NCBI GenBank assembly: GCA_009787625.1
Contig: WQSX01000020.1
Coordinates: 1-45,922 of the forward strand
Reading direction: 5' to 3'
From: Oscillospiraceae bacterium
Lineage (GTDB): Bacteria > Bacillota > Clostridia > Oscillospirales > Oscillospiraceae
Length of the DNA stretch: 45,922 nucleotides
Shown: positions 5,528-41,931 of the stretch, piece by piece
Position numbering within the stretch: the first letter of the stretch is position 1
Layout of the letters: the number at the start of each line of letters is the position of its first letter
Notes under the pieces: generated by a model
What the model was told of the DNA's origin: nothing
Databases searched by the model: none
Seen by the model: only the letters and a program-made list of their open reading frames with translations
Made by a program: the position numbers and the translations under genes

Positions 5528-6979
5528 TCATCTTTCAAAATGCTTTGCTCTGCGCATAATTTTTTGCTTTTGCAAAATCGGCACAACTTCCCGCACAAGC
5601 TTCTCCGCACTGCGCCGCAAATTTTCCACAACCTTAATTTCATCCTTCAAACCATAAAACTTCTCCCCAAGCACAACCCTCTCAGCACCCAAAGCTTTCA
5701 TCTCAGCCCGCCAAGCCTTAATAGGAATTTTAGTTCTGCCATTTACGACACCTGCAAAATAATCAAAAGCTTTCCTGTAAGCATTGATTTCAGTTTTATA
5801 CTTCGCAACATAAGCGTCATACTGCTTACCCTTAAAACTATTCAATTTCAACGCAACAGCCTTATACTGTTGCATAATATCATAATTGGCAATATGCGAC
5901 CCCAAAGTCTCCAACCGCTTGTCAATTCTTTTCACATCACCAGCAAGTTGCCGCGATTCATCAAACATCTGCTCTGCTTTTTCAGTAAGCTCCGAAAAAT
6001 CCCGTATATTATTCTCTCTCAAAAACTCAAAACTACTCGCCATAGCTTGCAAGTTAGCAAGTTTTTGACTATAAATAAGAAAGTTACGCCAATCAGCCTG
6101 ACTATTCGCAACATCAATCATAGACGGCACACCCTCAAGTGGCTGTGAATACAAATAATTCTTCTCTTTGCGGATACGTGCTGTAAGCTGTCGAATTTCA
6201 CTATTGAGCGAATGTATTTTCCGATTCCTATCTCCAAACTCTGCGCGGATTCCACGTCTCTCCATTCTATAAGCCTCTTGCCCCAAATGAATTGTAGGAA
6301 TTTGCTCTTTACCTTGCCGCTCATAACTTCGATGGTCTACTCGCTCCGCTAAACTATTTTCCTCCAAATACTTATTAACAGACTTCGCCCAAGACTTACG
6401 CCAAATTTCCGCATTATCTCGATTGTTCCAATCAGTGGATTCCACAGAGCGGCATTTGTATGTCTCTTTCTTCGGATCATAAATTTTATTACCATTACTA
6501 TCAAAAATATACTCTTTCCTCTGCTTGCTACCCCAAGTACCATTTTCATTTATAGGTCTGACTGTGCAGAGAACATGCGCATGAGGATTCCCAGAGCCTG
6601 TGTCATGAATACAGACATCAGCACACATACCTTTGTCAACAAAGTTTTCCCTTACATATTCTCGCACTAATTCAATGTTTTGCTCTCTGCTAAGTTCCAC
6701 AGGCAGGGCAATTTCAATCTCACGGGCAAGTACAGAATTTTTTGCTTTCTCGACAGTTTCAACGGCGTTCCACAAAGTAGACCTGTCAAAGTATTCTCTT
6801 GGTGCATGGCTTGGCAACATTATTTCAGTATGCACAATACCACGTTTATGCGAGTAATCATGGGTCAGTCCATCATATTCATTTGTAATACAAGTACCCG
6901 CTCTATAAGCTGCGGCGGCTACTGCTGATTTTCCTTTTCCACGACTTACAATTTTTAAGCTCATATGAAATATCGCCAC
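5528..6979 (-). CDS. MobA/MobL-family relaxase (MOBQ type)
   Basis: Residues 9-26 read KIVSRGKGKSAVAAAAY, the hallmark start of MobA/MobL relaxases; Tyr25 is the conserved catalytic-region tyrosine. His125 with NPHAHVL (His133, His135) forms the metal-binding histidine motif. The protein would nick oriT and lead conjugative mobilisation of the element. The C-terminal 250 residues are charged coiled coil, normal for the family. At 483 residues it is near the lower end of usual length. No type IV secretion genes are in the window, so the element would be mobilisable rather than self-transmissible. A DUF3847 gene that usually neighbours such relaxases is on the same strand but 16 kb away. Confidence 0.93.
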   Translation of the reverse strand: MAIFHMSLKIVSRGKGKSAVAAAAYRAGTCITNEYDGLTHDYSHKRGIVHTEIMLPSHAPREYFDRSTLWNAVETVEKAKNSVLAREIEIALPVELSREQNIELVREYVRENFVDKGMCADVCIHDTGSGNPHAHVLCTVRPINENGTWGSKQRKEYIFDSNGNKIYDPKKETYKCRSVESTDWNNRDNAEIWRKSWAKSVNKYLEENSLAERVDHRSYERQGKEQIPTIHLGQEAYRMERRGIRAEFGDRNRKIHSLNSEIRQLTARIRKEKNYLYSQPLEGVPSMIDVANSQADWRNFLIYSQKLANLQAMASSFEFLRENNIRDFSELTEKAEQMFDESRQLAGDVKRIDKRLETLGSHIANYDIMQQYKAVALKLNSFKGKQYDAYVAKYKTEINAYRKAFDYFAGVVNGRTKIPIKAWRAEMKALGAERVVLGEKFYGLKDEIKVVENLRRSAEKLVREVVPILQKQKIMRRAKHFER

Positions 6980-7167: not shown

Positions 7168-8301
7168 TTAATTGAAATATGCAGATAGTTTCTCCACCGC
7201 ACTCTTTTTCTCGTGATCAGATACGTGACTGTAAATTTGAGCTGTTATGTTTATGTTGGTATGCCCCATGAGCCTTGATGCGTCCAAAATTGATACACCC
7301 TGCCTTGCGAGGATTGTACAGAAAGTGTGTCTCAAACTATGCACCGTACAACCTTGCGTTATGTCCAATCTTTCACACAGTCGCTTAAATGCTCTCAAAA
7401 ACTCAGCACAGTAGCGGTATTCGTCAGTGTCGGATGGAAACAGTATAAAATCTCCATTCATAGTTACAATTTTAGTTCTGTCGCCTAGGTATGCAATGTA
7501 TTTATTGAGCAAGCCACGTATTTCAGCAAGCAACGGAACCCGTCTTATGCTTCCTACTGTTTTTGTGTCTGATACAACAGGCTGATATTCGCCATTCACC
7601 TTCAGGCGCTTGACAGTTTTGTTTACCGTCACCATTGCGTCTTTAAAATCAATATCTTTGTAGGTCAATGCCAATAGCTCACCGCTTCTCAGCCCGGTAA
7701 AAGCACAAAAGACAAATGGAAAAATTTTTATATCTTCTTGTGCAGCAGCAATTAACTTTTGCACGTCTGCATCCGACAGTGCAGTGTTGACCTCGACTTT
7801 CTCAGGCACTTTCGGGAGTTCGACGGATAGAAGAGGATTTTTTACTAAAATATCCGCTTTTAAGCAATACCTGAAAAATATACGCATAATCTTATATACT
7901 CGACGCACATTCGATGCCGAAATTCTCTCAAGCATGGCGTTGAAACAGGCCTGTATGTTGGCTCCTCTGATTTCTGCCAAACGCATACCAGCAAGCTCGC
8001 AACTTGCTATGTGTAGACGGTGGAATGCTTTGTACCCAGTATATGTAGAAATGCTCACCGATGAGCGATGTACATGCTCAAGCCAATGTTCGAAAGCATT
8101 TGCAAATGTTGCCTTGTCATAATCGATCGCCAGACCTTGTTTTAATCCGCTCAAGTATTCGTCTCGCTTGTTCTCAGCATCTTTCTTTGAGACTCCGTAG
8201 AACTGCTTGCGAATAGGCTTGCCGTCCGGCTTTTTGCCGATGGTGGCAGTAACTCTGAAATATTCGCTTCCGTTTACGCTAAAATTCGTTTTTCTTGGCA
8301 T
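7168..8301 (-). CDS. int: Tyrosine recombinase / integrase of the nested element
   Basis: An N-terminal Arm-type DNA-binding region is followed by a SAM-like core-binding domain and the catalytic domain. Catalytic residues are visible: Arg205 in FTGLRSGE, His321 and Arg324 in HSLRHTFCT, His347 in LMGHTN and the nucleophile Tyr357 in QIYSH. I start it at ATG 8301 because AGAGGTG lies 7 nt upstream; a TTG at 8307 is less well placed. Typical of integrative elements and phages of Firmicutes. It is the leftmost gene of the 7.1-21.1 kb element and is transcribed outward. Confidence 0.93.
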   Translation of the reverse strand: MPRKTNFSVNGSEYFRVTATIGKKPDGKPIRKQFYGVSKKDAENKRDEYLSGLKQGLAIDYDKATFANAFEHWLEHVHRSSVSISTYTGYKAFHRLHIASCELAGMRLAEIRGANIQACFNAMLERISASNVRRVYKIMRIFFRYCLKADILVKNPLLSVELPKVPEKVEVNTALSDADVQKLIAAAQEDIKIFPFVFCAFTGLRSGELLALTYKDIDFKDAMVTVNKTVKRLKVNGEYQPVVSDTKTVGSIRRVPLLAEIRGLLNKYIAYLGDRTKIVTMNGDFILFPSDTDEYRYCAEFLRAFKRLCERLDITQGCTVHSLRHTFCTILARQGVSILDASRLMGHTNINITAQIYSHVSDHEKKSAVEKLSAYFN

Positions 8302-8368
8302 GAGCAATCACCTCTTTTAATCTCGATATTGACAGATAGGCATATATGCAAAAATGGGGCATATGCCG

Positions 8369-8680
8369 TTATTCGTAATGTGTCCACATCCTCAAAACAT
8401 GCACGATGCCTTTGTATGGCGCGCCTGTTTCGTCCAACAAATTATCCGCATTTGGCTGAACATCGTAAATATAACGGTGTTGTTCGTTTATGCGGCGAGA
8501 ATAGCATCCAAGTAAGTCGCCTACCAGCTTTTCATACGGCGGCGGATTTTGGTATGGGTTACTACGGCATATAGCGGTAAACTCCCATGCTTTCCGCGCA
8601 TACGATGCCCCGGCACGTTTTAATTTGCTCAAGTCCTTGGTTGCTTGCCTTGAAAGTATGACCTTATACACCAAAATCAA
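8369..8680 (-). CDS. yoeB: YoeB/Txe-family mRNA-cleaving toxin
   Basis: A RelE-superfamily toxin of YoeB type, which cleaves mRNA on the ribosome. It has the conserved core EKLVGDLLGCYSRRIN, EQHRYIYDV, and a C-terminal His-Tyr pair (WTHYE). At 103 residues it is longer than YoeB (84), mainly because of an insertion before the last strand. Its start lies inside the 3' end of the antitoxin gene (17-base overlap), the usual operon order of antitoxin then toxin. Confidence 0.88.
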   Translation of the reverse strand: MILVYKVILSRQATKDLSKLKRAGASYARKAWEFTAICRSNPYQNPPPYEKLVGDLLGCYSRRINEQHRYIYDVQPNADNLLDETGAPYKGIVHVLRMWTHYE

Positions 8681-8921
8681 CCTCCGATGCGTCTATGCCG
8701 TCCGCTAACAGTTCAGCCGATGCGTCTTTTATAGATTGCACCATGCCGGGGATTGAATGCAAGTAAAGCGTTTCCTGTATGCCACTCCAGTTCTCCATGC
8801 TCAGCAGTACAGCAACCTTGCTATCGTCTGTAACAATTGTGACAGGTTCATCGAAGCGTATCACGCTGTCAATTACATCGTTGAAATCCTTTTGCGCCGT
8901 GTTGGCTGTTATGTGTCTCAT
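8664..8921 (-). CDS. yefM: YefM/Phd-family antitoxin
   Basis: This 85-residue protein has the YefM/Phd N-terminal fold (MRHITANTAQKDFNDVID, then VTIVTDDSKVAVLLSMENW). It binds YoeB and represses their shared promoter. A GAGGT ribosome site sits 7 nt before the ATG at 8921. It lies between the integrase and the type I toxin locus; such modules stabilise integrated elements. Confidence 0.9.
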   Translation of the reverse strand: MRHITANTAQKDFNDVIDSVIRFDEPVTIVTDDSKVAVLLSMENWSGIQETLYLHSIPGMVQSIKDASAELLADGIDASEVDFGV

Positions 8922-8967
8922 GCTCTTTACCTCATCTTTCGCTTGTATCTCCTAAAAGAATTCATCA

Positions 8968-8996
8968 TTGACAATTTCAGTTGCCGGGGTTATAAT
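8968..8996 (+). promoter_or_regulatory. Promoter of the antisense RNA
   Basis: TTGACA (8968-8973), a 17-base spacer and TATAAT (8991-8996): a perfect sigma-A consensus. No plus-strand ORF follows it. Transcription would start near 9003 and run into the 3' part of the convergent toxin gene. Confidence 0.8.
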
Positions 8997-9002
8997 TAGG
9001 GT

Positions 9003-9105
9003 ACAAAAAGGCGTTGCCGATAAACGGTTAGCCTAATGATTGACTACGAAAGTAGCCGCACACTTGGCTAGAGAGGGTGGCTATTTTCGTATGTCTTTAT
9101 AAATC
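9003..9105 (+). ncRNA. Predicted antisense RNA antitoxin of a type I module
   Basis: A consensus promoter at 8968-8996 points here, and the RNA has no ORF. It begins with a sequence (9010-9032) that is nearly repeated, inverted, at 9228-9252. It ends in a hairpin in which ACGAAAGTAGCC pairs with GGCTATTTTCGT through an A-T rich stem with one G-U pair. That stem is intact on this strand but has an A-C mismatch on the other, which suggests it evolved for this RNA. The RNA overlaps the last codons of the toxin gene. Its 3' end is estimated. Confidence 0.6.
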
Positions 9106-24610: not shown

Positions 24611-26008
24611 ATGGCAAATATCGAAAAACGTGGCGAGAACACCTATAGATTAACAGCTTATGCAGGTTATGATTCAAGTGGAAAACAGCTTAAAAAAAGA
24701 AAAACAGTCAAACTCAAAGTCGGTCTAACTGACAAGCAACGAGACAAAGAATTGAATCGTCTAGCTACTTTGTTTGATGATGAAGTTGAAAAAGGGCTAT
24801 ATCTCGACGGCGATAAAATTACTTTTCGCGAAGTCGCTCAAATGTGGTTAGAGCACGTACAAAAGCGGCACGCTCCTAAGACTTTGGCAACATACAAATC
24901 AAGATTGACTGACAGAATAATTCCCGCACTAGGTCATATAAAACTGAGCAAAATCCAACCTCACCACCTTGAGGGGTTTTATGATAGCCTTGAAAAGGAA
25001 GGCGTCAGACTTGATGCAAAATATTCACCCACCGTTAAATTGGGAGATGTGCTCAATCAATTTACTGCAATCGCACTTGCAGAGAAAACCTCTATAAATG
25101 AGCGGACAATCCGAAAAATAAAAAACAAACACAGTACCAACTATAAGACTGCCGAGAAACTTTGTGTTTCTTTGAATCTGAAATTTAAGGATATGTTTAA
25201 ACCGTGCGGGAAAACTAAGTTATCTGAAAAATCTATCCGCCATCATCACGATGTTGTGAGAACGGTTTTGTCCTTCGCTGTAAAAAGAAATCTAATCACG
25301 ACAAACCCTGCACAGCGTGTTGACTTTGAAAAAATGCCTGAATATGAAGCAAGCTACTATGACGAAACAGACATTACAACATTGTGTGAAGCCCTCCGCA
25401 GTGAACCCATTATGTACCGCACACTTATCTATTTAGCAATTGATTCAGGAATGAGAACGGGAGAAATCACAGGGCTGTTGTGGTCGGATATTGACTTTGA
25501 AACAGGCTATGTTACGGTCACAAAGCAACGCCAATATGTAAATGGCTATGGCATAATTATAAAAGAACCTAAAACAAAAAGCGGCAAGCGAATTTTAACG
25601 CTTTCAGCGACAGTTACGTCAATGCTTAAAGAATATTATGAAGAGCAAAAAAGAAATTTAGAAAAAATCGATGCCCAATGGTCTGAATCGCTCGAGGTAT
25701 TTACTCATGCAGATGGAGTTCCGATATATCCCGGACGTCCCCACCAATGGTTCACAGGTTTTCTTAAACGCCATAATCTCAAGAAAATAACCTTTCATCA
25801 ACTCAGGCACACTAATGCGTCCTTGATGATTGCCGCAGGTGTTGACATGGTAACACTCGCGAATAGGCTCGGTCACGCCGACAGTAATATAACTCAATCA
25901 ACCTATGCCCATATAATCCGTTCAAAAGAAAAACAAGCTGCAAATGTGATGGATATGTTCTATACCAAAACCACTGCAACTGCAAAGAAAATCGAGAGAA
26001 TTGGATAA
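24611..26008 (+). CDS. int: Tyrosine integrase with an inserted helix-turn-helix
   Basis: Arm-binding and core-binding domains are followed by the catalytic domain with Arg282 (SGMRTGE), His396 and Arg399 (HQLRHTN), His422 (LGHAD) and Tyr432 (TYAHI). Residues about 138-198 form an XRE-like helix-turn-helix inserted between core-binding and catalytic domains, which also lengthens it to 465 residues against about 380-400 for related enzymes. It ends 115 bases from the 3' end of tRNA-Sec, so the tRNA is the likely attachment site. Confidence 0.93.
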   Translation: MANIEKRGENTYRLTAYAGYDSSGKQLKKRKTVKLKVGLTDKQRDKELNRLATLFDDEVEKGLYLDGDKITFREVAQMWLEHVQKRHAPKTLATYKSRLTDRIIPALGHIKLSKIQPHHLEGFYDSLEKEGVRLDAKYSPTVKLGDVLNQFTAIALAEKTSINERTIRKIKNKHSTNYKTAEKLCVSLNLKFKDMFKPCGKTKLSEKSIRHHHDVVRTVLSFAVKRNLITTNPAQRVDFEKMPEYEASYYDETDITTLCEALRSEPIMYRTLIYLAIDSGMRTGEITGLLWSDIDFETGYVTVTKQRQYVNGYGIIIKEPKTKSGKRILTLSATVTSMLKEYYEEQKRNLEKIDAQWSESLEVFTHADGVPIYPGRPHQWFTGFLKRHNLKKITFHQLRHTNASLMIAAGVDMVTLANRLGHADSNITQSTYAHIIRSKEKQAANVMDMFYTKTTATAKKIERIG

Positions 26009-26062
26009 TTAACAAACATAAAAATAAGCCCCAAATAAGCCCCAAGCAGTGCGTGAAAACAA

Positions 26063-26112
26063 AAATAACCTTGACGGAGCAAGCTGTAATGCCTGTAAAA
26101 TCAAGGTTATTT
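26063..26112. terminator. Bidirectional terminator between integrase and tRNA-Sec
   Basis: AAATAACCTTGA (26063-26074) is the exact inverse of TCAAGGTTATTT (26101-26112). A T-rich stretch follows on the plus strand; A/T runs flank it on the other. It separates convergent integrase and tRNA transcription. Confidence 0.7.
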
Positions 26113-26122
26113 CTATACCATA

Positions 26123-26217
26123 TGGCGGAGGCAAATGGGAATCGAACCCATCTTCGAGTTTTGGCTCGAACAACGGTGTTGAAGACCGCGAGGCACACCA
26201 GTTACCTTATTACCTCC
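26123..26217 (-). tRNA. selC: tRNA-Sec (anticodon TCA)
   Basis: A 95-nt tRNA with encoded CCA (26123-26125). The acceptor stem has 8 pairs (GGAGGTAA with TTGCCTCC, one G-U), the anticodon loop CTTCAAC at 26178-26184 has UCA at the centre, and the long variable arm forms TTCGAG/CTCGAA. An 8-bp acceptor stem plus UCA is specific to selenocysteine. It shows that the host decodes UGA as Sec. Its 3' end faces the integrase at 24611, the standard layout of an element integrated at selC. Confidence 0.96.
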
Positions 26218-26272: not shown

Positions 26273-26330
26273 TATCTGTCGAATGTGAAAATCTTTTTAT
26301 GTAATCGATTGCGAAACGCTAAATTAAGCT

Positions 26331-26397
26331 TTGCTATCAGAATTATTGCAAAACACTTGTTTTATGGGCCATTCCAGTATATAATTTTTAATACATC
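26331..26397 (+). promoter_or_regulatory. Promoter copy 1 of a 67-bp duplicated element
   Basis: Contains TTGTTT (26357-26362), 17-base spacer, TATAAT (26380-26385). The whole 67 bp recurs with few changes at 30070-30136, where it precedes the SH3-cas3 genes. Here it precedes the Smr and deformylase genes by about 200 bp. Confidence 0.75.
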
Positions 26398-29963: not shown

Positions 29964-30069
29964 TTTAATCTCCTGCTTTGGGTTTAATTAATAATTATTT
30001 TATGTGATGCCATTTTAGCATATGCGAAAACGAAAAGCAAATTCACTTGTTGCTGAGTTAAATTTAATA

Positions 30070-30176
30070 TTGCTATCAGAATTACTGCAAAACACTTGTT
30101 TTATGAATCATTCCAGTATATAATCTTGAATGCATCATTTAGACGGTATTTTGTTTGCGTATAAGTTGGCGGATTA
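30070..30176 (+). repeat. Duplicated promoter fused to a copy of the deformylase gene's 3' end
   Basis: 30070-30136 repeats 26331-26397, including TTGTTT (30096-30101) and TATAAT (30119-30124). 30136-30176 repeats 27757-27797, the last codons of the deformylase-like gene, at 37 of 41 positions. The two parts meet at one base. It is a scar of duplication with internal deletion of about 1.36 kb, and it probably supplies the promoter for 30215 and cas3. Confidence 0.85.
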
Positions 30177-30214
30177 GCGAAATGCAGTAGTTGAAAAAGA
30201 AAGGATTTTCTAGT

Positions 30215-30571
30215 TTGAAAGTTAAAGTTATCCAAAACCACGATGGTGAAGGGCAATTTCCCACATTTGATAAGGGAGCGAAAGTAAAAATTATCGGTGA
30301 TGAATGTGTTGAATTCTCACACTGGTTTCCATGCGAGATAGAGGGGTATCAGACATATGTGCCCGAATCTTTTATAGCAGAGGGGCTTTTGGCGCGGAAA
30401 TATAATCCTACAGAACTTGTGCAGAGCGTTGGAGATTTACTTGTGGTGAATGAAATAGTAAACGCATGGTTAATCGCTACTAATGAAAGCGGACACATGG
30501 GGTGGATTCCGGCGGAAGCGGTTGAATCTCTTTGCAGTACCGGAATTGGGTTTAAGGCAGATGACACATAG
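30215..30571 (+). CDS. SH3-like domain protein upstream of cas3
   Basis: A 118-residue protein with two SH3-like halves: FPTFDKGAKVKIIGDE and WFPCEIEGYQTYVPESFI, then a second strand set (VNEIVNAWLIATNESGHMGW). The start is TTG at 30215, preceded by AAAGGA. No membrane or signal region. It lies between a duplicated promoter and cas3. Whether it takes part in CRISPR function is unknown. Confidence 0.65.
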   Translation: MKVKVIQNHDGEGQFPTFDKGAKVKIIGDECVEFSHWFPCEIEGYQTYVPESFIAEGLLARKYNPTELVQSVGDLLVVNEIVNAWLIATNESGHMGWIPAEAVESLCSTGIGFKADDT

Positions 30572-30655: not shown

Positions 30656-33301
30656 ATGTTGGGAAACTTTAAGCCAAAGGTTTTGTGGGCGAAAAAACCA
30701 AAAGAAGATGAACCGGACGACATAGTATATTTAGAAACCCATCTCGAAGAAACCGCTGGAGTTGCAAGAAAATTATGGAAAAATTGGATACCTGAGGGAT
30801 TAAGAAAGCAGCTTGACGAAAGTCTGCTTATTTTTTTAGCCTATGCGCATGATTTAGGAAAGGCGAGCCCGGCATTTCAGCTCAAGACAGGCTATAATAC
30901 TTGCGACGTTGACGAAAAAATTTATGATGGTCTTGTGCGCGCAGGTTTTGATTTAGGTAAAGATTATACGCCAAGCAAAACACCTCATGCCTTGGTTTCG
31001 TTTGGAATATTAAGGCGACATGGATTCAGTGACGCTGTCAGTGTGGTAGTGGGAGGTCATCACGGAAAACCGCCGACCAGAGATCAGGTAAACAAAGACC
31101 TTGATGCATATGAGGAAAGCTGTGGTTTTGATAAAGTTTCGTGGATACAAGCTCAAGACTTATTGCTAAAAAAAGGGTTAGAAATATCCGGAATTGCAGT
31201 GGAGAGTATAGAAAATATAACGATTACGCGCCCACAACAAGTGCTTTATAGCGGGTTAGTGATACTTGCGGATTGGATTGCAAGTAGTGAGTGGGACGGG
31301 GAAATGCCCACAATGTGGAATCCGCATATTTCGGAAAATATTTATAGTCATCGTTTCGGGATAGAAAATCCTCGCCCGGTACAATCAAATTTAATTCAAG
31401 CTGCAAAGTCATCATGTTCACCGGGTATTTATGTTGTTGAAGCACCAATGGGAGAGGGAAAAACGGAGGCGGCACTTGCCGCCGCAGAAGTTCTTGCAAG
31501 TAAATTTGGCTGTCGCGGTGTGTATTTTGCACTGCCATCACAAGCGACATCTAATGCGATGCTTGCGAGAGTTAAAAACTGGATAGAGCATTTTGGAGGG
31601 CAAGACGGTGCACTCAGTATACGCCTTGCTCACGGCAAAGCTGAACTGAACGAAGAGTACGAAGGAATTAAAATTTCCGGATACAATAGCGACGACAAGG
31701 ATGGTGATAGTGTTGTAATGGTACACGATTGGCTTGTCGGACGAAAAAAGGGAATACTGGCGGATTTTACAGTAGGCACAATAGATCACATCCTAATGGC
31801 GGGGCTAAAGCAAAAACACCTGGCACTTAGGCATTTAGGTCTTGCAAACAAAGTTCTGATTATTGATGAATGTCACGCATATGACGTTTATATGGAGAGT
31901 TATTTGTTAAAAGTAGTAAGGTGGCTTGGAGCGTATGGTGTGCCAATTATTATTTTATCTGCAACACTGCCGGTTGATAGACGCAATTCGTTAATTGAGG
32001 CGTATATGGCAAAGAGAGTGGGTAGTTTAAATCGTGAAGAATACAATCGAGAAAAATCTTTAGCATACCCACTTATTACATACACAGACGGACAATGTGT
32101 TAAATCTGTGCCGGTTGAAGAAAAAATCGCTGATAGGAACAAGGTGGTAGAGGTTGAAAGGCTTGGCGAAGATAAGTTGATAGATGCTTTGCAGACCGTT
32201 TTAGCAGGTGGCGGCTGTGTGGGGCTCATCTTTAATACTGTAAAAAAGGCACAAGAGTTTTATGAAAAAGTAGCTGCCGAGTTTGGGGAAGAAATAGTAG
32301 AGTTACTACATGCCGGATTTATTGGTCTTGATAGAGCGAAACGTGAAAGAAAACTACTTGTTAAGCTCGGCAAAGATTCTACAGAGCGACCAAAGAAAAG
32401 AATTGTTATTGGTACACAAGTTTTTGAGCAGTCGCTGGATATTGATTTTGATGTTATGTTTACGCAGTTATGTCCGATTGATTTGTTGTTACAACGAATG
32501 GGCCGGTTGCACAGGCATTTTAGAGAATCACGCCCCGGTGGTGTGCTGAAGCCGAAGTTCTACGTTGTGGGTGCAGATTGGGGAGATTTTGACAATGGCT
32601 CAAAAGCTGTATATGGCGAGTATTTATTAATGCGAACTTGTAGTGTTTTAGAAAATTGGTCGCCAAGTGTTGAGTTGCCGACTGATATTCCACATTTGGT
32701 TGCACAGGTGTACAATGATGACTCTGAGATTTCCCCACCTGTGGAGTTTGTTGAGGATTACGAAAAAGTTCAATCTGAACATAAAATGCGAAATGAAGAT
32801 AGAAAAAGCAGAGCAAAAGGTTATCAGATAAGTGGTAATATTACAGATCGCAACATACTCGGTTGGCTTGATAATTCTCGCAAAGAAAGTGAGGGAGAAG
32901 CGTCAATCAGAGATGGTGCTGATGCAATTGAGGTATTAGTGGTGCAACGGAGGGGTGGCGAAATATGTCTGATCCCGTGGATAAATGAAGGCGAGCCGGT
33001 TGTAGACCGCACACCAAGCGACAGACTTGCGAAAACTATTGCCGGCTGCTCAGTGCGTTTACCATTGGCTTTTAGTAGATATAAGAAACTGGAAAGTACA
33101 ATTGAGATTCTTGAAGAACAAATGGTAGATGCAAACATCAAAAATGGTTGGTATGAGTCTTATTGGCTTGAAGGTTCGTTAATATTAATTTTGGATGAAG
33201 ATTTAAATGCAGTCATCGGAGAACATCGCTTACATTATTGCGAGCATTTAGGATTGCGAGTCAGTGACGATTCAAAAGCAAACAAGAGTTCTGAGTGTTG
33301 A
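30656..33301 (+). CDS. cas3: Cas3 helicase-nuclease (type I-E)
   Basis: An 881-residue protein. The HD nuclease has His29, AYAHDLGKASPAFQ at about 62-75 and HHGKPP near 140. The helicase has Walker A APMGEGKTEA (about 262-271), DECH (about 404-407), SATLP (about 434) and the motif VI QRMGRLHRH (about 613). A Cas3 C-terminal domain follows. Recruited by Cascade, it unwinds and degrades the target. It is 246 bp ahead of the Cascade genes, in the gap that holds the minus-strand mini-CRISPR. It probably shares a transcript with the SH3 gene. Confidence 0.97.
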   Translation: MLGNFKPKVLWAKKPKEDEPDDIVYLETHLEETAGVARKLWKNWIPEGLRKQLDESLLIFLAYAHDLGKASPAFQLKTGYNTCDVDEKIYDGLVRAGFDLGKDYTPSKTPHALVSFGILRRHGFSDAVSVVVGGHHGKPPTRDQVNKDLDAYEESCGFDKVSWIQAQDLLLKKGLEISGIAVESIENITITRPQQVLYSGLVILADWIASSEWDGEMPTMWNPHISENIYSHRFGIENPRPVQSNLIQAAKSSCSPGIYVVEAPMGEGKTEAALAAAEVLASKFGCRGVYFALPSQATSNAMLARVKNWIEHFGGQDGALSIRLAHGKAELNEEYEGIKISGYNSDDKDGDSVVMVHDWLVGRKKGILADFTVGTIDHILMAGLKQKHLALRHLGLANKVLIIDECHAYDVYMESYLLKVVRWLGAYGVPIIILSATLPVDRRNSLIEAYMAKRVGSLNREEYNREKSLAYPLITYTDGQCVKSVPVEEKIADRNKVVEVERLGEDKLIDALQTVLAGGGCVGLIFNTVKKAQEFYEKVAAEFGEEIVELLHAGFIGLDRAKRERKLLVKLGKDSTERPKKRIVIGTQVFEQSLDIDFDVMFTQLCPIDLLLQRMGRLHRHFRESRPGGVLKPKFYVVGADWGDFDNGSKAVYGEYLLMRTCSVLENWSPSVELPTDIPHLVAQVYNDDSEISPPVEFVEDYEKVQSEHKMRNEDRKSRAKGYQISGNITDRNILGWLDNSRKESEGEASIRDGADAIEVLVVQRRGGEICLIPWINEGEPVVDRTPSDRLAKTIAGCSVRLPLAFSRYKKLESTIEILEEQMVDANIKNGWYESYWLEGSLILILDEDLNAVIGEHRLHYCEHLGLRVSDDSKANKSSEC

Positions 33302-33312
33302 TGCAGAACTCT

Positions 33313-33404
33313 TGTCGTGTCCCCGCATATGCAGGGCAGGTGTTTAATCATAAACGTCCATTTATAAACAACTAAGGGTCACCCCCGCGAGTAGCAGGGC
33401 GTTT
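33313..33404 (-). ncRNA. Degenerate mini-CRISPR: predicted cas-regulating guide RNA
   Basis: On the minus strand, repeat A (33375-33404) ends GCGGGGGTGACCCT and repeat B (33313-33341) has TGCCCTGCATATGCGGGG. Both keep the hairpin of the main array, with the same C-to-T change in the stem (a G-U pair), and both lie at the array period (62 against 61 bp). The single 33-nt spacer (33342-33374) starts TAGTTGTTTATAAAT. Its first 15 nt match 33465-33451 at all but position 6, next to AAC. An extended -10 (TGCTAAAAT, 33414-33422) could start the RNA near 33407. This is the layout of Cascade-guided regulators (CreR or CreTA type). Confidence 0.75.
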
Positions 33405-33450
33405 TCGGAAAACATTTTAGCACAGATTGATAAAATAAGCTAGCATCAAT

Positions 33451-33506
33451 ATTTATAAATAACTAGTTGAGTTTTTCTTGACATATCCTTTTTCGTATGT
33501 TATTAT
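33451..33506 (+). promoter_or_regulatory. cas8e operon promoter with predicted Cascade target site
   Basis: TTGACA (33478-33483), 17-base spacer, TATTAT (33501-33506), then AGGAGG before cas8e. The target 33451-33465 with PAM complement GTT at 33466-33468 ends 9 bases upstream of the -35. Cascade bound here would lie at about -45 to -62 and cover the promoter edge. Confidence 0.8.
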
Positions 33507-33547
33507 ATCAGTAATAGGGGTTTATTTTTATGTGATAGGAGGATAAT

Positions 33548-35164
33548 ATGACAGAGCCAATATATAATTTGCTAGATGAGCCTTGGGTAAAGGTTACAAA
33601 CCTCCAAGGTGAAGAGGAAATGTTGTCAATCACAAGCACACTTGTGAAAAGTCACGAGTTGAGAAGTCTGTCTGGAGAGATGCCGTCACAAGATTTGGCG
33701 ATATTGCGCCTATTGTTAGGTGTCCTTTATTCGATATATACTCGTACTGAAGAATATGAAAATGCACGAGATGATGAAAGTAAAGATGCGTGCATGGATA
33801 TGTGGGAAAGACTGTGGAAACGCAGTCATTTTCTTGAAAACGAAATTGTTGACTATTTACAGAAATACCGTGATAGGTTTTGGCTTAGACACCCGGAACT
33901 GCCCTTTTACCAACTAGCTGAAATTAAGAAAGGCAGTGATTTCGTCACTTCAAAAATGATTGGAAGCATGGTAGAAAGTAGCAACAAAACCATGTTATTT
34001 CAAAGCAGAACAGGAAAAAGCAAGCAGTATTTGGACTACCCCGAAGCAACACGCTGGCTGCTTTACTTAAATAGTTTTGATGATGCGTCGGCAAAGCCTA
34101 GCCAAAAAGGCTTAGAGTCCATGAGTGTAGCTTGGCTCGGGCAACTTGGTCTAGTTTACGTTGCAGGTGCAAATTTGTTTGAAACACTGATGTTAAATTT
34201 TTCTCTTGTAAATTTTAACATTGGTGAAGGCGAACCGTGGGGGAAAGGTGATGCGACGTGGGAGTTAGAAAAGCCGCGAACAGCTGAAAGAACAGTTATC
34301 ACGGTGCCAAGTAGCGCAGAAGAATTGTTTACTTTGCAATCACGCCGTATTCAGTTAAAATATCAGGGAGATAAAGTGACAGGCTTTACCCTTCTTGGGG
34401 GAGATAAGTTTGATAGCGAGGATGCCTTTGCAGAGCCTATGACCACATGGAAGCTTAGCAAATCTAAAACGGGTTCTGGAGAAGTGTTTATACCGCCGAG
34501 TAATGCTGCACGAAATCCGTCAAAGCAACTTTGGCGCGATTTTGCACCACTATTGTTGGAGGCTGAGAGCGATTCAGAAAAACACCGTAAACCCGGAGTG
34601 CTAAAATGGATTTCGGAGCTGGATGGTATTATTTCTTCTAAACAAGTTCAAATCTGCACGATGTCAATAAAATATGGAAATATGCAAAGTGGTATAGATG
34701 AGGTCTGGGATGACACACTTTCTGTAAATACATTTATATTATCGAAAGTAGGTGAAAAGTGGATCGGGCGCATAACCAATATAGTGAAAACAACAGAGGA
34801 TTTAGTCAAAACATTGGGAAACCTTGCTTCAAATATTGCAAAGGCGAGTGGCTCTGTTGATGGGCTGAATCAACGCAATTACGCCATGGAAAGAGCTTAT
34901 GCCGCACTGGATATACCGTTTAGAACTTGGCTTGCGTCCATTGATGACACATCAAATATCAATGAAAAATGCAACAAGTGGATTGATAAAGCTAAAAGAG
35001 TTATTTTAGACCATGGAGAAAATCTTGTTTCGCAAGCAGGGACTCAAGCCTTTGTTGGAAGAACTGTTATTGTAGGTAACAAAGAGTCACATTATAGCAC
35101 TCCTAGAGTTTACGGCTGGTTTAAGGGTGGCATATCAAAAATATTAAGTAATAAAATTCAATAA
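33548..35164 (+). CDS. cas8e: Cas8e (Cse1/CasA), large Cascade subunit
   Basis: A 538-residue protein: NLLDEPWVKVTNLQGEEEMLSI at the N-terminus is the family signature. It recognises the PAM, holds the crRNA 5' end and recruits Cas3. The C-terminal third is the four-helix bundle. AGGAGG lies 5 nt upstream. It starts an operon of six closely spaced or overlapping genes down to cas2. Confidence 0.97.
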   Translation: MTEPIYNLLDEPWVKVTNLQGEEEMLSITSTLVKSHELRSLSGEMPSQDLAILRLLLGVLYSIYTRTEEYENARDDESKDACMDMWERLWKRSHFLENEIVDYLQKYRDRFWLRHPELPFYQLAEIKKGSDFVTSKMIGSMVESSNKTMLFQSRTGKSKQYLDYPEATRWLLYLNSFDDASAKPSQKGLESMSVAWLGQLGLVYVAGANLFETLMLNFSLVNFNIGEGEPWGKGDATWELEKPRTAERTVITVPSSAEELFTLQSRRIQLKYQGDKVTGFTLLGGDKFDSEDAFAEPMTTWKLSKSKTGSGEVFIPPSNAARNPSKQLWRDFAPLLLEAESDSEKHRKPGVLKWISELDGIISSKQVQICTMSIKYGNMQSGIDEVWDDTLSVNTFILSKVGEKWIGRITNIVKTTEDLVKTLGNLASNIAKASGSVDGLNQRNYAMERAYAALDIPFRTWLASIDDTSNINEKCNKWIDKAKRVILDHGENLVSQAGTQAFVGRTVIVGNKESHYSTPRVYGWFKGGISKILSNKIQ

Positions 35165-35182: not shown

Positions 35183-35746
35183 TTGTCAAAAGGATTAGAA
35201 GTAAAGGATTTTGTCCATCGGAAGATAATAATGCTGGATAAAGAAGAACCCTACAGTAAGGCGGCATGTGCAAAACTGAGACGTGCTTTAGGGAAGTCTC
35301 CGGGTGAAGCTCCTGATGTTTGGGAGATAACTTTGTATGGTGCGCCTGAAGGTGAAAAATCCGAGAGTGCTATCCATACATGCTTGACATTATATGCACT
35401 GCATCGTCAAGGGAAAAGCGAGAGCATGAGTGAAGAGAAAATCGGATTTGGGACTGCAATCGCCAAGCTGGTTGCGATAAAGCCTGACAGTGAAGATGCC
35501 ATTAGGCGACGATTTAACGCAGTTGCTACCTCTGTGGAGTTTGCTGAACTTGCACATCATGCGAAAGGGCTGGTGCAGTTGCTTAAATCAAATGACATAA
35601 AAATGGATTATCCTCACTTTGCAAATGAATTATTTTATTTCCACCTCCCCGACCAAAGAGATAAAACCCGCCTAGAGTGGGGCAAGCAGTTTTATCGTAT
35701 AATTGAAAGTGAAAATAATAAGAATGAAAGGATAAATGAGAAATGA
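35183..35746 (+). CDS. cse2: Cse2 (CasB), small Cascade subunit
   Basis: A 187-residue protein; two copies line the belly of Cascade and hold the displaced strand. Recognised by length, position and the pattern AACKLRRALGKSPGEAP-like segment near the start (AKLRRALGKSPGEAPDVW) and FNAVATSVEFAELAHHAKGL. I start at TTG 35183, with GAGGTG 6 nt upstream; a GTG at 35174 lies inside that ribosome site. Overlaps cas7e by four bases. Confidence 0.92.
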   Translation: MSKGLEVKDFVHRKIIMLDKEEPYSKAACAKLRRALGKSPGEAPDVWEITLYGAPEGEKSESAIHTCLTLYALHRQGKSESMSEEKIGFGTAIAKLVAIKPDSEDAIRRRFNAVATSVEFAELAHHAKGLVQLLKSNDIKMDYPHFANELFYFHLPDQRDKTRLEWGKQFYRIIESENNKNERINEK

Positions 35747-37471: not shown

Positions 37472-40043
<2,572 letters not shown>

Positions 40044-40071: not shown

Positions 40072-41931
40072 ATATGCCCCGCACATGCGGGGGTGATCCC
40101 TATTCATATTCTGCACAAGCTTCGCATTAATAATATGCCCCGCACATGCGGGGGTGATCCCAGCTCTTCCGCTATAACGTAGAGCATTACATAATATGCC
40201 CCGCACATGCGGGGGTGATCCCAATAGTGCTCGACTTTGAGCTGTTCGAGCCGTATATGCCCCGCACATGCGGGGGTGATCCCATCTACATGATGACCGA
40301 TTACAACAACGGCTTATATGCCCCGCACATGCGGGGGTGATCCCTGAGAAAGATTGCCCATATTTTGACGAATGTAATATGCCCCGCACATGCGGGGGTG
40401 ATCCCTCTACTAACTTTGCGAATGTCAACAGCAACGGATATGCCCCGCACATGCGGGGGTGATCCCATTACCTAGACCTCCGGGTGCACCAACTTTAGAT
40501 ATGCCCCGCACATGCGGGGGTGATCCCGATGACCGCAGAAAGTTGACGGAAATCTGCATATATGCCCCGCACATGCGGGGGTGATCCCCTAAGCTCACCA
40601 TTCACATATTGATTGAATGTATATGCCCCGCACATGCGGGGGTGATCCCGATATGAGCGTGGTAGTCAGCAGCCTACGTTGATATGCCCCGCACATGCGG
40701 GGGTGATCCCAAAAGTGGGCATACGTACCCTAAAAACGGAGAATATGCCCCGCACATGCGGGGGTGATCCCAGAAAAACCCGCCACCGATAAAGGTGACG
40801 GGCATATGCCCCGCACATGCGGGGGTGATCCCGTTACTCCTTTCATAGATTTCTCCGTGTCCGTATATGCCCCGCACATGCGGGGGTGATCCCGTATAGG
40901 CGGTCTTGTTTTTCGGCGGCGAACTATATGCCCCGCACATGCGGGGGTGATCCCGCGATATATACTACATATATATCAAAAAACTTATATGCCCCGCACA
41001 TGCGGGGGTGATCCCGTGTGATAATGCGCTCTACATTGACACTATTAATATGCCCCGCACATGCGGGGGTGATCCCAGCCGTTGAGCGCCATCTAATAGT
41101 CCACTGGCATATGCCCCGCACATGCGGGGGTGATCCCGTCGCCGTCAAGAATAATTTGCAAACTTTCGTATATGCCCCGCACATGCGGGGGTGATCCCTT
41201 TAAATCAATTTATTAGATTTTGCTTCTTTTATATGCCCCGCACATGCGGGGGTGATCCCGTAGAGCATTACATATTCATGTTCAAGGTAGAATATGCCCC
41301 GCACATGCGGGGGTGATCCCTGCAAACGACCATTTGAAGGAACATGCGATATATATGCCCCGCACATGCGGGGGTGATCCCGGTTCTTTTTGTTCGGGGC
41401 GGGCGAGTCGATTATATGCCCCGCACATGCGGGGGTGATCCCGCGCCATGTCAAGAGGTCAGCGTGAACCTCTTAATATGCCCCGCACATGCGGGGGTGA
41501 TCCCGAGCCTCACTACTTCGGAGAATTCGTAAACGCATATGCCCCGCACATGCGGGGGTGATCCCACACTTACAGGAGTTTGCCACTCTGCGAAGTCATA
41601 TGCCCCGCACATGCGGGGGTGATCCCCTGAGTGGGATTGTTGAGCAAGCTAAGTTGACATATGCCCCGCACATGCGGGGGTGATCCCTCGCCCCGTCAAC
41701 GCTCTTACGGCTCGTTTCGATATGCCCCGCACATGCGGGGGTGATCCCGTACACAAAATTGCATTTGCCGGCATACCTTTATATGCCCCGCACATGCGGG
41801 GGTGATCCCCTATGAGCTTGAAGGTCCTATGCCTCGGCAACATATGCCCCGCACATGCGGGGGTGATCCCTCATCAGCATCTATTTTTGGTGTTACATCT
41901 AGATATGCCCCGCACATGCGGGGGTGATCCC
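40072..41931 (+). CRISPR. Type I-E CRISPR array, 31 repeats and 30 spacers
   Basis: A 29-bp repeat (consensus at 40072-40100, with stem CCCCGC/GCGGGG and 3' end GGGTGATCCC) occurs 31 times with a period of 61. I see no variant repeats, including the last. Spacers are 32 nt; the one at about 41443-41475 is 33. The 3' end GTGATCCC gives the expected 8-nt handle, so transcription is rightward from the cas side. Spacers 2 and 20 overlap by 15 nt, which yields AAC as the inferred PAM. Confidence 0.98.

Follow-up and report, generated by a model that had tools for sequence, protein, structure and literature searches.

The gap between cas3 and cas8e in the DNA analysed here holds, on the minus strand, a mini-CRISPR which we read, with a probability of roughly 0.9, as a creR gene, in which two degenerate repeats would give a single crRNA-like guide that lets Cascade repress cas8e. 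The window, by which we mean the whole of the stretch analysed, is one entire contig of 45,922 bases from a 3.0-Mb assembly, and holds a complete type I-E CRISPR-Cas system comprising cas3, cas8e, cse2, cas7, cas5, cas6e, cas1, cas2 and an array. Judged by its architecture, the element is best filed as a new example of CreR. The relevant features are, by position:

30656..33301, plus strand: cas3, with HD and helicase domains (profile matches)
33313..33341, minus strand: psiR2, the second pseudo-repeat, stem CCCTGC-ATAT-GCGGGG, last 8 nt degenerate
33342..33374, minus strand: guide (spacer), 33 nt, first 15 nt TAGTTGTTTATAAAT
33375..33404, minus strand: psiR1, the first pseudo-repeat, stem CCCTGC-TACTC-GCGGGG (33399-33383), then 5' handle GTGACCCT (33382-33375)
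33414..33422, minus strand: presumed guide promoter, extended -10 TGCTAAAAT, read by eye, predicted start near 33407
33451..33465, minus strand: candidate target (non-target strand) TAGTTATTTATAAAT, agreeing with the guide in 14/15, sole mismatch at position 6
33466..33468, minus strand: AAC adjoining the target, in the PAM position (one of the type I-E PAMs given by PMC8482600)
33478..33506, plus strand: predicted cas8e promoter TTGACA-17-TATTAT, with TG before the -10 (consensus scan)
33548..35164, plus strand: cas8e (cse1/casA), TIGR02547
35174..38092, plus strand: cse2, cas7, cas5e and cas6e, the remaining Cascade genes, TIGR02548, TIGR01869, TIGR01868 and TIGR01907
38089..40043, plus strand: cas1e and a Cas2e-DnaQ exonuclease fusion, TIGR03638, TIGR01873 and DnaQ-type hits
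40072..41931, plus strand: CRISPR array, 31 identical repeats ATATGCCCCGCACATGCGGGGGTGATCCC and 30 spacers

Of the array spacers 29 are 32 nt in length and one is 33 nt. The Cas2e moiety is fused to a DnaQ-type exonuclease (39066-40043), and the array starts only 28 bp beyond it. On the other side of the system lies a 78-nt direct repeat, promoter-like by eye (TTGTTT-17-TATAAT), whose copies at 26320-26397 and 30059-30136 are 86% identical, the second being found upstream of a small SH3-like ORF (30191-30571) and cas3. A phage-type integrase is located beside a selenocysteine tRNA gene (26123-26217, minus), both within 24611-26217, and this pair possibly marks the edge of an integrated element.

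The mini-CRISPR in the gap (33301 to 33548) consists of a 33-nt spacer between two degenerate repeats. An earlier note on this DNA had described two diverged minus-strand repeats which keep their stem with one shared G-U change, and both the coordinates and the letters were confirmed: the 6-bp stem CCCUGC/GCGGGG is present in both pseudo-repeats, with one U-G pair common to the two, and a predicted fold forms both stems, the z-score being only -1.64. The 8-nt handle of psiR1 is still recognisable (GTGACCCT against GTGATCCC in the array) and that of psiR2 is lost. The repeats had further been placed one array period apart, which is near the mark but not exact, as the stem-to-stem spacing is 63 nt in the mini-array and 61 nt in the array. 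When compared ungapped with the array repeat, the window's best minus-strand 29-mer outside the array is the one at 33313 (18/29); the 29-mer at 33375 scores 17/29, equal to an unrelated one at 35302, and one plus-strand 29-mer of the window also reaches 18/29. The ungapped score understates psiR1 because its loop carries one extra base. As chance 29-mers score as high, similarity to the repeat is not decisive by itself; the deciding features are the two paired repeats, the two 6-bp stems and the handle. A scan of 33200-33600 against Rfam returned a single microRNA-family match, far under the family threshold, and this was dismissed as chance.

The first 15 nt of the guide, TAGTTGTTTATAAAT, agree with the minus strand at 33465-33451, TAGTTATTTATAAAT, in 14 of 15 positions, with position 6 as the sole mismatch and AAC preceding the site; a letter-by-letter check bore out this claim of the earlier note, as well as its statement that complementarity ends after position 15, since only 5/17 bases match between guide positions 16-32 and the sequence beyond the site. 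The site with its flank (pattern AANTAGTTNTTTAT) is present once in the 3.0-Mb assembly, and the same pattern read backwards, which served as a control, was found four times on the two strands of the assembly. When the target side was dinucleotide-shuffled 20,000 times, and only matches which share the first three bases were counted, 14/15 was reached in 2 shuffles and beside AAN in 0, and the 15-mers behind the 31 array repeats attain a maximum of 11/15 in the cas3-cas8e gap. With positions 6 and 12 left free and one mismatch allowed, the word occurs twice in the window, as guide and as site; by this looser whole-window control two copies were also seen in 2/100 window shuffles. AAC, AAT, AAG and AAN are all among the type I-E PAMs listed in PMC8482600, and a search of viral_contigs for a PAM with 2 of the 30 array spacers gave 0 matches each.

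The target had been placed just upstream of the cas8e -35, and this too holds: nine bases part AAC from the predicted -35 (33478), and the target covers approximately -62 to -48 relative to the predicted cas8e start. TTGACA-17-TATTAT was the only promoter-like site found in 33250-33600, where shuffles average 1.2. The guide's presumed promoter is without a good -35 and is absent from the consensus scan, which requires one. Lying between what would be two divergent promoters, the site might also let the guide restrain its own production.

For comparison, loci that carry a cas8e homologue were drawn from genome samples of the order (16/394 genomes matching), the class (11/391) and the phylum (27/398), the source genome being included in each, and from genome_contigs, of which 80 loci were kept of at least 405 confirmed; 20 of the 28 places of the phylum sample were taken, and some order and class matches were omitted or were near-copies. 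Removal of near-copies left 111 distinct loci, referred to below by number, in 101 of which the sequence extends 2.8 kb or more upstream of cas8e. The scan sought repeat-like hairpin pairs with CC at handle positions 6-7, scored all 15 guide positions alike and considered sites within 300 nt. It returned 65 candidate first repeats in 14 of the 111 loci: 10 belong to isolated mini-arrays of two repeats upstream of cas genes, and the other 55 to ordinary arrays, which account for 4 of the loci. The best scores of the mini-arrays, out of 15, were 14 in the window, L034 and L073, 13 in L035, L051 and L032, 12 in L063 and L112, 11 in L048 and 9 in L049, and the best among the 55 ordinary-array guides was 11. 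A score of at least 12/15 within 300 nt was therefore reached by 8/10 mini-arrays against 0/55 ordinary-array guides (Fisher p = 9e-9), and the best site adjoins AAN in 9/10 mini-arrays (L049 is the exception) against 6/55 array guides. The 11/15 of L048, with mismatches at positions 9 and 10, is equalled by one array guide, itself beside AAG, and L048 alone is thus unconvincing. L049 has the repeats of a mini-array without a matching site within 300 nt (best 9/15), and in L032 the second-best match is 12/15 beside TCG. Across the eight loci with at least 12/15, 12 of the 15 mismatches occur at just two positions, 6 in seven loci and 12 in five, which is the pattern that Cascade recognition predicts. 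Past position 15 matching drops to 3-8/17 in nine loci, L048 being the highest, a fall-off that fits binding without cutting.

When guides were compared with other loci, ignoring positions 6 and 12, 83 hits were obtained in 11,031 comparisons, 9 of them with AAN; the 64 own-locus tests would thus be expected to give 0.48 hits, 0.05 with AAN, and 15 and 11 were seen. These own-locus hits stem from 8 distinct mini-array guides, and the 15 include multiple sites per guide (L034, L048), hits due to a duplication in L034, which supplies one of the 11 AAN hits, and four without AAN. The matches in the window, L035, L063 and L012/L032 were noticed before any scan and those in L034, L048, L051, L073 and L112 came from scans, the thresholds having been chosen after the first cases. 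For L034 a candidate picked earlier by eye, with 7 matching bases, was replaced by the stronger match from the scan. The cas8e tree, in which L033, L174 and L175 form very long branches, needs 7 changes for the nine loci, and 12/500 shuffles are equally low. Given these changes, and the fact that the window, L034 and L035 belong to one clade, the nine loci should not be counted as separate origins; the binomial and Fisher values are therefore only indicative. No candidate first repeat was found by the scan in the cas3-cas8e gaps of L018/L033 (75-bp gap), L037, L064, L072, L096 and L113, and cas3 runs up to or into cas8e in the majority of the 80 genome_contigs loci. Among close relatives cas8e occurs in 2/60 genomes, the source genome included, and the other one lacks a comparable gap because cas3 overlaps cas8e there. 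Scans for related loci with a single protein found no relative.

Independent variation of spacer and promoter site in related loci was looked for, and the two instead co-vary. The window, L034 (a Lachnospiraceae MAG) and L035 (a Eubacteriaceae MAG) make up one supported cas8e clade, the latter two being the closest relatives, with cas8e identities to the window of 69% and 68%, respectively. Their guides read TAGTTGTTTATAAAT, AATTAGTTTGTTTAA and AAGTAGATTATTTTA, and each matches its own promoter region beside AAN, at 14/15 in the window, 14/15 in L034 and 13/15 in L035. In both relatives guide and site are altered alike with their mutual match kept, and the best cross-matches among the three reach 9-12/15, none of these beside AAN. 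The co-variation, an argument which single loci could not have provided, is drawn from a single clade of three loci whose cas8e identity is 68-69%; six further loci across the cas8e tree present a like pattern, one of them weakly. The proposal of a CreR-like guide for Cascade autorepression thus gains support from the match, from the survey of mini-arrays and from the co-variation in L034 and L035.

The promoters of the relatives were read by eye, and the candidate sites are found at varied places around them, that of L035 between the -35 and the -10. In L063 and L032 the mini-array is on the plus strand behind the regulated promoter, and the guide would therefore be cut from the cas leader, and L048, L051, L073 and L112 have it upstream of cas3, in divergent orientation in L051; seven T follow the second repeat in L112, resembling a terminator. 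The stem-to-stem distance is 60-63 nt in the window, L048, L063 and L073, 49-51 nt in L034, L035, L112 and L032, and 67 nt in L051. The 49-51-nt class is presumably about two six-base Cas7 steps shorter, going by the structure of Cascade. The first stem reads CCCTGC in 7/9 loci, and the arrays, with sequence for 7/9, read CCCCGC, which makes the change a recurrent weakening of one stem pair. In L048 (Paenibacillus ginsengihumi DSM 21568, 5971-6000) the weak candidate target forms an inverted repeat whose arms both adjoin AAT, and in L051 (a Coriobacteriales MAG, 5989-6393) an ORF of 134 residues, without a protein-family match, is situated between the CreR-like target and cas3.

Two of the relatives carry further genes around the switch. 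The promoter region of L034 is present in two copies (L034:7931-9960), which are 77% identical across 218 alignment columns including 36 gaps. Copy 1 has an intact mini-array and faces an ORF (8191-9093) which matches Abi_2 (1.1e-19) and AbiD (1.8e-21) and has no NCBIfam match; in copy 2, which precedes cas8e, the first repeat is gone and all 15 target bases are kept, and the target is flanked by AAC in one copy and by AAT in the other. Between guide and cas8e L032 carries an ORF similar to RelE3 (3bpq, E = 2.8e-4), for which Pfam and PADLOC gave no match and NCBIfam only one below threshold (E 0.068). This ORF shares the interval between mini-array and cas8e (L032:13903-14347, minus) with a small ORF, which might, by position only, be its antitoxin.

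That the element is merely what is left of an old array, functionless, with a spacer which resembles the promoter region or was once captured from it, would agree with the degeneracy of the repeats and with the existence in L049 of a mini-array that has no matching site. However, a captured spacer would match over its full length, whereas the nine loci retain only 3-8/17 past position 15, and decay would neither keep guide and site matched nor place the mismatches at positions 6 and 12; we regard such a remnant as very improbable. Still less credible is that the shared 15 bases are two operator copies for a DNA-binding protein rather than a guide and its target. The shared word is indeed AT-rich and contains an 8-bp palindrome, TTTATAAA, and the L048 target is an inverted repeat, but in each of nine loci, whose words all differ, one copy begins at the guide start, directly behind the stem and the 8-nt handle, and the mismatches lie at bases which Cascade flips out.

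The guide might also belong to an addiction module of the CreTA/CrePA type and repress a toxin instead of cas8e, as the type I-E creA layout of Citrobacter rodentium with its 96-bp toxin ORF (PMC12055562), and the AbiD-like or RelE-like genes behind the regulated promoter in two relatives, would suggest. In the window, however, the predicted promoter reads directly into cas8e, and we give this explanation as little credence as the array remnant. The earlier note saw no room for a CreT toxin in the cas8e leader; this stands insofar as the leader (predicted length about 35 nt) has no ORF of more than 4 codons, but a toxin RNA of about 35 nt without an ORF would still be compatible with it.

Taking the element as a creR gene, we infer a cycle of expression, processing, binding, repression and release. 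The minus-strand RNA from the mini-array would have the predicted 5' handle GUGACCCU and end in the 33313-33341 hairpin, Cas6e would cut within the mini-array repeats, and Cascade would take up the guide. Cascade would then bind the minus strand at 33465-33451, with AAC as PAM, through guide positions 1-5, 7-11 and 13-15; pairing would stop at position 15, too short for recruitment of Cas3, so that Cascade would stay in place as a repressor. The genes repressed would be cas8e-cse2-cas7-cas5-cas6e and those downstream, amounting to negative feedback on the effector, and repression would be released when Cascade is scarce, blocked or occupied by ordinary crRNAs. PMC5904413 reports that in E. coli AAG together with a seed match of only 5 bases can suffice for Cascade to bind, that the guide base at every sixth position is flipped out, and that interference requires an extended R-loop. 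The earlier statement that type I-E Cascade skips position 6 agrees with the flipping out of every sixth base, but E. coli off-target sites match position 6 above chance (PMC5904413), and freedom at this position is therefore not absolute.

If this reading is right, Cascade autorepression by a built-in guide would be recognisable from sequence, by a seed match with mismatches at the flipped bases 6 and 12, and there would be nine candidate type I-E loci (one weak) over several cas8e lineages. In the relatives the switch apparently also faces a toxin gene, a possible route from cas regulator to anti-CRISPR alarm. More tentatively, and at somewhat less than even odds, the CreR-controlled promoter may be an evolving switch and not a fixed cas regulator, with guide and site rewritten together and toxin genes captured behind it. 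Were this so, one L034 guide would repress both cas8e and the AbiD-like toxin, the RelE-like gene between guide and cas8e in L032 would be another such capture, and CreR and CrePA-like guards would interconvert. The duplicated switch in L034 is the most interesting lead.

A literature search, which did not extend to the primary CreR study, found no description of these loci. The layout is nearly that of the Citrobacter rodentium type I-E system, where, according to PMC12055562, the cas3-casA interval contains a putative creA, encoded on the opposite strand, whose target is at the UP element, and a toxin ORF of 96 bp is present. As outlined there, it shares with the window the cas3-casA gap, the opposite-strand guide, the UP-element target and an adjoining PAM, in the window a putative one; however, its promoter is followed by the toxin ORF and that of the window by cas8e (PMC12055562). 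Haloarchaeal CreTA, in the accounts given by PMC9458426 and PMC8501985, likewise has two degenerate repeats, the first keeping its handle and the second largely without, and the kept psiR1 handle and lost psiR2 handle follow the CreTA repeats described in PMC9458426. The haloarchaeal modules differ in having an RNA toxin and in their Cas6 and repeats. These are of type I-B. Autorepression by Cas9 in type II-A is mentioned in PMC13131331. There also the effector represses its own promoter and anti-CRISPRs relieve the repression, although the system is of type II and the guide takes another form. Type II-A Cas9 autorepression acts via tracr-L. The nearest counterparts are the cas-regulating RNAs, which the review PMC13131331 presents as autorepressing types I-B, I-E and V-A through partial promoter complementarity; CreR and CrePA are described in PMC12737573, which cites Liu et al. 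(2023, Cell Host Microbe). With CreR as depicted in these two sources the window has in common a crRNA-like guide, partial complementarity to a cas promoter, a position beside the cas genes and the absence of a toxin (PMC13131331, PMC12737573), and against such review descriptions we found no difference in kind.
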